Source: an uncultured Oscillospiraceae bacterium
GTDB taxonomy: Bacteria > Bacillota_A > Clostridia > Oscillospirales > Oscillospiraceae
Assembly (NCBI GenBank): GCA_900762245.1
Contig: CAAFFR010000068.1
Location: 1 to 5,930, forward strand
Length of the DNA stretch: 5,930 bases
Direction of reading: 5' to 3'
The position numbers and the translations under genes are program-made. The stretch's first letter is position 1. Each line of letters starts with the position of its first letter. The notes beneath the pieces are model-generated. The model had not been told where the DNA came from. It searched no databases and was given only the letters and a program-made list of their open reading frames with translations. Positions 1 to 5,930 of this stretch are shown here, one piece after another.

Positions 1-296
1 GATACCGCCAGCGCCGCACCGGACAGCAGGCAGGCCGCCGTTCTCGGCAGACGGACATACCAGAAGATGAAGCCCCCCATGCCCCCGGAAAGGGAAGCCG
101 CGCCAAAGCGCAGGCTCAGGAGGGCGGATAACACCATCAGGGCACATCCGGTGCCGAGCCGGCGAAAACGGCTGTCATTGCGAACCAATCCGCAGGCTGG
201 TGTCGTAACCTCCTCCGGGAGTCCAGAAACTTCAGGGGATTGCCACGTCGGGCTTGGCCCTCCTCGCAATGACATATTTTTCTTTCTCTTATCCAT
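1..296 (-). CDS. FecCD/BtuC-family ABC importer permease, 5' part only
   Basis: Partial gene: the reading frame is open from an ATG at 296 to the window edge (98 codons plus 2 bases). Residues 42-98 look like the start of a FecCD/BtuC permease: a basic RFRR stretch, a first hydrophobic helix (about 47-67), then the family motif RLPRT at 82-86 followed by LLSGAALAV at 90-98. In this family the permease forms the dimeric membrane channel that imports iron-siderophore, haem or cobalamin delivered by a binding protein. The start overlaps the stop of the upstream binding-protein gene by 8 bases (ATGGATAA), which suggests translational coupling. The first seven residues (MDKRKKN) are a typical short basic tail. 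Residues 8-41 are encoded by a 102-bp repeat inserted in frame. Alternative starts are ATG at 275 (inside the repeat's edge), TTG at 188 and ATG at 137; the last would cut into the first helix. Family assignment is firm; the start is inferred from overlap and the basic tail. Confidence 0.85.
   Translation of the reverse strand, partial: MDKRKKNMSLRGGPSPTWQSPEVSGLPEEVTTPACGLVRNDSRFRRLGTGCALMVLSALLSLRFGAASLSGGMGGFIFWYVRLPRTAACLLSGAALAV
173..274. repeat. 102-bp inverted-repeat element (MITE-like) inside the permease gene
   Basis: The ends are perfect 11-bp inverted repeats: TGTCATTGCGA at 173-183 and TCGCAATGACA at 264-274. The interior contains further imperfect dyads, for example around 184-201 and 208-220. 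No transposase is encoded, so it would have to be moved in trans if it is mobile. I see no obvious target-site duplication: the gene-strand flanks are AAATA before and GCCGT after. From memory, sequences with this type of end recur in Firmicutes drafts; this was not searched. The length is a multiple of three and the gene-strand frame has no stop, so it reads through as 34 residues of the permease. Confidence 0.8.
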
Positions 297-1215
297 TCTC
301 CAAAATTTCCTCCAGCTTTTCATAGGCTTCGCCCCAGCGGTGGTTGGGTTTCAGGTTGTACAGATTCTTGTCCATGAAGTACAGCCGCCCTTCTTTCACC
401 GCGGTCAGCTGCTGCCAGGCGGGATTTTCCGCCATCATCGTTTCCACATAGGCCTTCATACCCTCCGCATCGTCGCCCCGCTGGACAAGGAAGATGTAGT
501 CCGGGTCCGCTTCCAGAATCCGCTCCATGCTTAAATTTTCCAGCAGGGATGTATCGGAATCCGCGATGTTATGACAACCCAGGCTTTTCAGCATTTCTCC
601 AAGGACGTTATCCTCGCTGTTTTTCACCGTCACCGAGGAAGCCGAGGCCCGCATGCACAGCACGGATGGGGCGGTGCCCCGGGTTTCCGCCTGTTCCAGC
701 ACAGCGCTGATCTGTTTTTGGACCTCCACGCCGTATTTCTCAAACAGGTCCCGTCTGCCGGTGATGCCGGTGCACAGGTCCAGCAGGCGGAAGTAATCTT
801 CAAAATCCGACACATCGAAATAGGCCGCGGGAATGCCGGTGGCATCCAGGGTTTCCATCCATTCCAGATTCTGCCGGGTGTTGGCAGAGGCCATGATGAA
901 ATCCGGCTGGGAAGCAAGCAGCAGTTCCAGAGACAGTTCCTTGGTGTTGCCGAGGTTTACGCAGTCCTCCGGCAGTTCCAGCCCCAGGTCATCCCAGGCA
1001 TCGTCTGCCGTGGCAATGACCTCGCCCCCCGCCAGCTGCCACACCTGGGCAAAGCTGCCCAGCAAACAGGCTACCCGTTTGGGCTCCTGCACCTTTACAG
1101 TCCTGCCAAGGGCATCCTGAAAGCTGGAAAAAGCGGCTTCCCCGCTGGATTGCCCATGGGCACAGCCGGTCAAAAAGAAAAAAACGAGAAAAATCGAGAA
1201 AATCCGAGACTTCAT
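289..1215 (-). CDS. ABC importer substrate-binding lipoprotein (FecB/BtuF/FhuD type)
   Basis: A 308-residue protein, the usual size for class III (TroA-fold) periplasmic binding proteins. Residues 1-18 are a lipoprotein signal: basic MKSR, a hydrophobic core, and lipobox LTGC with Cys18 as the lipidated residue. The mature domain starts with the family pattern FQDALGRTVKVQEPKRVACL (about 32-51). It continues with LELLLASQPDFIMAS (97-110) and later ILEADPDYIFLVQ, the two repeated lobe signatures. It should capture an iron chelate, haem or corrinoid outside the membrane and pass it to the permease encoded just downstream. The start at 1215 is chosen because AGGAGG lies 8 bases upstream and the signal peptide begins there. 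The frame stays open to 1341, but that extension is only the hairpin repeat being read through. No clear promoter is visible between the terminator at 1388 and this gene, a gap almost wholly filled by the repeat at 1239-1379. The substrate is not determinable from sequence alone. Confidence 0.9.
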   Translation of the reverse strand: MKSRIFSIFLVFFFLTGCAHGQSSGEAAFSSFQDALGRTVKVQEPKRVACLLGSFAQVWQLAGGEVIATADDAWDDLGLELPEDCVNLGNTKELSLELLLASQPDFIMASANTRQNLEWMETLDATGIPAAYFDVSDFEDYFRLLDLCTGITGRRDLFEKYGVEVQKQISAVLEQAETRGTAPSVLCMRASASSVTVKNSEDNVLGEMLKSLGCHNIADSDTSLLENLSMERILEADPDYIFLVQRGDDAEGMKAYVETMMAENPAWQQLTAVKEGRLYFMDKNLYNLKPNHRWGEAYEKLEEILENG

Positions 1216-4339: not shown

Positions 4340-4564
4340 TAGGAGGGAACCTCGGCCCCCTCTTTGAGGGGGCTGGCACGCCGACAGGCGTGACTGGGGG
4401 AGTGTCCTGCTTATGATAGGACACTCCCTCCGTCAAAAATCATAGATTTTTGCCACCTCCCTCAAAGAGGGAGGCAAGTGGCGCTCCCGCGCCATTGCAC
4501 AGCAAATGCCCCTTTGTCAGGATTTGCTCCGCCATTGGTCAAAGCCTTGCGCTTTTTTCTCCTA
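4340..4564. repeat. Hairpin-array repeat of a second type, about 225 bp
   Basis: This element fills most of the 354-base gene-free stretch between the zinc-ribbon gene and the next operon. Possible ends are TAGGAG (4340-4345) and CTCCTA (4559-4564), only 6 bp, so the borders are approximate. Inside are six consecutive hairpins: 4355-4362/4366-4373; 4377-4382/4387-4392; 4398-4408/4418-4428 (11-bp stem); 4434-4441/4445-4452; 4456-4463/4467-4474; and 4480-4484/4489-4493. The rest, up to about 4555, is less structured. Frames here are short and unsupported. The first and fifth hairpins share a CCCTC...GAGGG core. No transposase gene is present. Confidence 0.75.
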
Positions 4565-5761: not shown

Positions 5762-5801
5762 GCCGTGCATAAAGCATACATGGGTATTTGTCGAAGTATT
5801 C

Positions 5802-5930
5802 GTAGGGGAGGGTCTTGACCCTCCCGGTCATTTTGCATTGTAAAATGACATCGCCGCAGGCGATTATATCATTATTTCCCTGCGGGAAATCCCAAATTGC
5901 ATTGCAATTTGGGCGGGAGGGGCAAGCCCC
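5802..5930. repeat. Hairpin-array repeat, copy 2 (inverted, cut by the window edge)
   Basis: Same family as 1239-1379 but in reverse orientation. Hairpins in order: 5806-5812/5819-5825; 5828-5836/5840-5848; 5850-5855/5859-5864; 5874-5880/5884-5890; 5891-5900/5904-5913; and a last GGGAGGGG stem begun at 5915 and cut off by the window. Differences from copy 1 fall mainly in 3-base loops, in the spacer around 5865-5873, and in paired positions where base-pairing is kept. It lies 40 bases downstream of the three-gene operon. Confidence 0.9.

Follow-up and report, generated by a model that had tools for sequence, protein, structure and literature searches.

In-frame palindromic repeats in the N-terminal tail of a FecCD-type ABC permease among relatives of an uncultured Oscillospiraceae bacterium

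Rickettsia palindromic elements (RPEs) are dispersed palindromic repeats of about 150 bp, inserted without a frame break into genes that are probably still functional, and nearly half of those first reported were inside open reading frames (PMC10969869, in the portion available). Proteins carrying RPE-1 at the N-terminus have been reported as expressed, some GTAG/CGTC REPs lie inside open reading frames, part of those N-terminally, and recB carries different REPs at about the same site in two Xanthomonas species (PMC3733652, in the portion available). RNA structures that protect messages from decay offer a further comparison: of 26 in E. coli, 17 sit within the gene downstream, at a mean depth of 107 ± 56 nt, and the binding-protein gene is the one stabilized in malEFG and four further ABC operons (PMC5927463, in the portion available). 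Because in-frame repeats (above all in Rickettsia), N-terminal cases and the Xanthomonas recB pair appear in the portions of PMC10969869 and PMC3733652 at hand, the kind of insertion treated here is already known.

The present case lies at the start of a 5,930-nucleotide stretch of DNA from an uncultured Oscillospiraceae bacterium (contig CAAFFR010000068.1), hereafter the window, where a 102-bp palindromic element sits within an ABC permease gene (Table 1). Its ends, TGTCATTGCGA and TCGCAATGACA, form perfect 11-bp inverted repeats, and it begins 22 nt from the A of the permease ATG. The original prediction of an in-frame, 102-bp inverted-repeat element in a transporter gene was confirmed by these perfect ends, the open frame and dispersed copies. 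The element family resembles MITEs in being short, non-autonomous, bounded by terminal inverted repeats and present in many copies.

Like RPEs, the window element is dispersed, palindromic and in frame in a gene: it is a palindromic repeat with multiple copies in relatives' genomes and an in-frame insertion with insert-free orthologues. The likeness is one of description rather than sequence comparison, RPEs belong to another host group, and, unlike in RPEs, one tail is used by two repeat families among the window's relatives. The CGTC end of RPE-4 and RPE-6 is absent from the window copy, which has TGTC at both ends. Compared with GTAG/CGTC REPs, the element is longer, has these TGTC ends and was linked to no transposase in a search of two genomes for Y1_Tnp; the insert of the closest related genome locus (L001) and the window repeats at 1239-1379 and 5799-5930 begin with GTAGGGG. 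Like the malEFG-type hairpins that protect against decay, the element lies just past an ABC binding-protein gene and inside the next gene, but those hairpins are native and many are conserved in enterobacteria (PMC5927463, in the portion available), whereas the window element is a repeat that most listed orthologues lack. Neither the window's repeat family nor the reuse of one tail was found among the matches listed in searches of an open-access library, where the exact text GTCATTGCGA gave no relevant paper by title among the matches listed, MITE with in-frame fusion gave none and MITE with permease gave only an unrelated match.

Table 1. Coordinates of the element and of the gene junction in which it lies (window positions)
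Feature	Position	Strand	Basis
Family-1 palindromic element; core GTC...GAC 174-273; permease nt 23-124; in-frame residues 8-41	173..274	-	Sequence and genomic copies
Terminal inverted repeat, 5' arm TGTCATTGCGA (minus strand)	264..274	-	Sequence
Terminal inverted repeat, 3' arm TCGCAATGACA (minus strand)	173..183	-	Sequence
FecCD (PF01032) ABC permease, first 98 codons, ended by window edge	1..296	-	Frame; full-length cluster P0005
Substrate-binding protein gene, Peripla_BP_2 (PF01497), immediately upstream of permease	289..1215	-	Pfam
Stop/start overlap: binding-protein TAA 291-289 with permease ATG 296-294	289..296	-	Sequence
GGAGG, Shine-Dalgarno-like, 12 nt ahead of ATG 296	309..313	-	By eye

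The minus-strand frame that opens at ATG 296 meets no stop across the element (173-274) and continues into helix 1 and the RLPR motif, and the sequence thus bears out the earlier statement that the permease frame is unbroken from the stop-overlapping start codon across the repeat. The 98-residue permease piece gave no Pfam match by itself; its full-length protein-database cluster, P0005 (356 residues, 56 member sequences), differs from it at residue 35 alone within the 98 shared residues and matches FecCD over the body of the protein (residues 55-348, E 1e-78). The PDB relatives of the permease are BtuC, HmuU and FhuB, and the host gene is that of an iron- or vitamin-B12-type transporter of a probable gut bacterium. 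The window had no Rfam match at gathering scores, and no relative was found in viral_contigs.

Four relatives' genomes, chosen via binding-protein similarity, held 55, 36, 9 and 0 element-matching pieces at E<=0.001 (scoring limited to 40 candidates per genome). In the genus to which genome G001 belongs, 33 of 136 genomes had a match at E<=1e-10 (limit 6 candidates per genome). The search for further copies of 173-274, proposed with the original prediction, therefore yielded many copies, in relatives' genomes. From 77 loci (20 + 57), 85 end pairs of 84-130 bp were extracted, a few of them nested pairs. The core GTC...GAC was preceded by T and followed by A in 65 of these 85 end pairs, which makes the borders 173-274 reasonable; TGTC stood at both ends in 64 of the 85 copies and CGTC at one or both ends in 16. 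An excess of 2-9-base direct repeats, as expected of target-site duplication, was absent at the flanks of the 85 copies.

The family as a whole shows no preference for lengths that are multiples of three (remainders 0/1/2 in 27/30/28 of 85). Copies have a mean of 2.76 open frames out of six, against a mean of 2.48 and a highest value of 2.71 in 50 shuffles and 3.05 in flanking DNA; special openness as an adaptation to coding was rejected, the copies being slightly above shuffles yet below flanking DNA. The stop-free character first ascribed to the insert thus holds for the permease frame, but openness is not special to the element. Open frames spanning a copy and reaching 20 or more codons beyond it on either side numbered 51 distinct (53 listed), of which 20 were scanned by Pfam. 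The scan gave four matches (that of L125 below cut-off), each downstream of the element. In none of the 20 scanned frames did a Pfam domain extend across the element, and so no further copy within a gene was found, unlike the RPE case; this comparison covers 20 of the 51 distinct spanning frames.

A protein search with the permease of L001 (P0003) as query returned 7530 relatives, the best 120 of which were analyzed. An RLPR-type motif begins within 55 residues of the start in 113 of these 120, and the remaining seven are family-1 clusters; MGKK occurs in 58 and MAKK in 33 of the 113 shorter tails. Orthologues without the tail, a check proposed at the outset, therefore exist. That they should lack exactly residues 8-41 held less well, since the deficit depends on the orthologue: the distance from Met to the LSL anchor is 62 residues in P0005, 20 in P0006 and P0013 (42 fewer) and 29 in P0007 (33 fewer).

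The tails of P0001, the query P0003 and the best 120 homologues were compared by tblastn with genomic copies, in a small database that makes the E-values rough. Family 1 was found in the tails of P0001 and of seven of the best 120 clusters (P0004, P0005, P0008, P0009, P0014, P0016 and P0021; best E 2e-18 to 4e-8), and this match to genomic copies ruled out a tail unrelated to the repeat. The match begins at residue 8 in P0001 and six of the clusters, and at residue 10, in another element frame, in P0004. Four of the seven clusters carry the repeat oriented as in the window and two, P0009 and P0016, carry it reversed, their tails reading the opposite element strand; P0004 has no defined orientation, since its two arms are both ACCAG-type, an arrangement shared by 4 of the 85 copies. 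The sisters P0016 and P0021 have identical flanking residues and inserts of opposite orientation. A second family occurs in the tail of the query P0003, with a tentative 12-residue remnant in P0012 (E 2e-6). Matches at E 0.005-0.04 (family 1 in P0023, P0040, P0046, P0064, P0086 and P0117; family 2 in P0013) lie in helix 1 and were counted as chance, and protein-database searches with tails alone returned only the query clusters. Inserts were compared as DNA for the window and for L001. The remaining inserts come from predicted proteins, from which their frames and borders are deduced, and only inserts that stay open appear in gene predictions.

The second family was recognized in L001, the closest genome locus (binding protein 87% identical), which has an unrelated palindrome in frame a few codons from the insert position of the window. 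This palindrome, CCGTAGGGGCC...GGCCCCTACGG, is 85 bp long, starts at gene nucleotide 15 and has ends GTAGGGGC; searched together with its flanks, it matched 89 pieces in G001, a number that includes its own locus and both strands. Binding-protein identity was 53-87% in 15 of 16 genome_contigs loci and 26% in the other (L016). Insert-free loci include L002, L003, L004, L005, L008, L010 and L013, which have a similar start/stop overlap and a short basic tail. At E<=1e-60 the permease was found in 25 of 136 genomes of the genus of G001, at 27 loci; the second element was present only at that of G001 (L055) and the whole first element at none of the 27, while L068 has a 31-base piece of the first element far from the tail. 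Among 400 family-level genomes, 13 matched at E<=1e-95, with either element (E<=1e-3) only at the locus of G001. A Lachnospiraceae permease (L014, about 6870-7120) apparently has a different open N-terminal extension of ~60 residues, its start being tentative.

A tree was built from 67 of 121 permease bodies (P0003-P0123), with tail and helix 1 excluded. All insert-bearing rows fall within one 28-row part (support 85/92, not starred), where they are intermixed with insert-free rows. Presence and absence require five changes on this tree, at least three of them forced by starred branches, and none of 500 shuffles was as low (mean 8.6); the count is still five with P0012 taken as empty and six for family 1 alone. 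The insert trait is therefore clustered, yet it does not define one simple clade. Gains and losses look alike on this tree, since its root was not inferred. The sisters P0003 and P0004 share 282 of 283 body residues and carry different repeats, of family 2 and family 1 respectively. Directly after the insert the two differ strongly (RYLLGSAALV in P0003, RWLGTIFALV in P0004), which suggests recombination at the gene start. Because six of the seven family-1 clusters share the insert codon, much of the pattern could be explained by a single ancient insertion of family 1 at codon 8 followed by losses and flips, together with independent events in P0003, P0004 and possibly P0012; this history is as compatible with the data as one of more insertions.

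The reading preferred here, at a probability of roughly 0.7, is that palindromic repeats have more than once entered the N-terminal cytoplasmic tail of the permease in frame, been replaced there or been lost, the window element being translated as a dispensable extension. AlphaFold, run on 41 sequences (mean pLDDT 74.4, pTM 0.75), left residues 1-40 unstructured (block pLDDT 46-52) and placed helix 1 at 41-63. Short MITE- or REP-like palindromes would insert a few codons past the overlapping start codon and would more than once be replaced or lost; frame-keeping insertions would survive because the tail is predicted to be unstructured and helix 1 begins past the insert, and these same features lead to the proposal of a dispensable translated extension. 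Transport would presumably be unaffected. How many changes took place, in which direction they went and how the repeats transposed are inferences from these patterns. The suggestion that the repeat was domesticated or at least tolerated is supported in its second part, as the occupied tails seen keep the frame with two orientations and two families, in a database limited to open inserts; domestication is not supported, because inserts come and go, differ between near-identical bodies and are predicted to be unstructured.

In-frame palindromic repeats in genes are thereby extended to relatives of uncultured gut Oscillospiraceae, in a case that illustrates how selfish DNA can become part of a protein. 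Two repeat families and two orientations at the same few codons, beside empty alleles in close relatives, form a natural series suited to asking if such insertions in proteins are just tolerated or are kept for an effect on RNA.

The latter is possible, although unlikely: the repeat may be kept as an RNA hairpin about 25-125 nt into the permease message, where it would block 3'-5' decay and leave binding-protein mRNA in excess over permease. As the overlapping genes leave no intergenic room, such a repeat would have to keep frame. Folding energies are -41.1 kcal/mol (z -2.28) for the isolated element and -72.7 (z -11.0) for the L001 palindrome, the junction is shared by two palindromes with no relation to each other, and E. 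coli provides a precedent of protective structures inside downstream genes (PMC5927463, in the portion available). The hairpin is nevertheless not a conserved one: in a fold test of the 130 nt past the binding-protein stop, with hand-set start points and single-base shuffles, z fell below -3 only in L001, L007 and L015 of 16 loci, and the window gave -1.5. The opening energy of the start region was also inconsistent, being lower when the element is present than when it is removed in the window (7.3 against 11.3) and higher in L001 (15.3 against 10.3); the idea that the element blocks or frees the permease start was dropped, its effects differing between the two. It is rather unlikely, too, that unrelated palindromes have been repeatedly recruited in frame at the permease start, with the hairpin setting the ratio of binding protein to permease by shielding the upstream message. 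If true, this would mean selection for a mobile RNA structure inside a protein, exchangeable across repeat families and orientations.

A translated extension also presupposes that the permease starts ahead of the repeat. The contrary reading, that the repeat is effectively extragenic because the permease starts at Met 54 or elsewhere past the element and the upstream open frame is incidental, is improbable. It draws on the caution that, for many REPs placed at an N-terminus by gene prediction, the true position may be extragenic (PMC3733652, in the portion available) and on an internal Met past the insert in six of eight tails measured (P0005, P0008, P0009, P0014, P0016 and P0021; absent from P0003 and P0004). 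A start at Met 54, however, would cost 13 of the 23 residues of predicted helix 1, and all eight insert-bearing tails measured (P0012 being outside this set) keep a hydrophobic segment ahead of that position. By eye, no Shine-Dalgarno-like run precedes Met 54, insert-free relatives have equivalents of ATG 296 and of its overlap, and the frame is preserved in the occupied tails seen. None of the best 120 homologues starts at an internal Met after the element; this and the hydrophobic segment favor translation through the element, which would then begin at ATG 296.

An assembly artefact, in which repeats caused contig ends to be wrongly connected during metagenome assembly, is scarcely credible: misjoins do arise from repeats and the L001 record is a metagenome-assembled genome, but both elements (102 and 85 bp) are below common read length, the order of binding protein and permease in L001 is that of insert-free relatives, the window's cluster P0005 has 56 member sequences and six clusters share the insert codon position.

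Other palindromic repeats occur in the window and its relatives. Positions 1239-1379 and 5799-5930 of the window hold two GTAGGGGAGGG-type palindrome copies, with inverted arms of 147 nt at 1249-1395 and 5784-5930 that are 84% complementary. The insertion at 1239-1379 is shared with L001, as a counterpart lies upstream of the L001 binding-protein gene (about 5842-5987). A search for Y1_Tnp in two genomes found three loci in G001 and none in G002. At one of them (L153, 1377-1972), a Y1_Tnp (PF01797) gene is flanked by GTAGGGGAGGG...CCCTCCCCTAC ends, making it a possible autonomous parent of the GTAGGGGAGGG-type repeats of the window. At another (L154, 1127-1320), both arms of a GTAGGGGC pair, a GTAGGGGCGATC/GATCGCCCCTAC palindrome, lie inside the open frame P0124, whose later part matches Y1_Tnp; the repeat may thus be in frame within a transposase gene itself. 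The third gene (L152, 1-1050) lies amid GTAGGGCGCAGATATATCTGCGCC-type repeats; a family-1 copy is found ~1.1 kb from it and none at its ends, in this search of two genomes for Y1_Tnp only. Two further intergenic palindromic repeats of other sequence are present in the window at 2457-2598 and 4342-4487, with arms that are 90% and 76% complementary.
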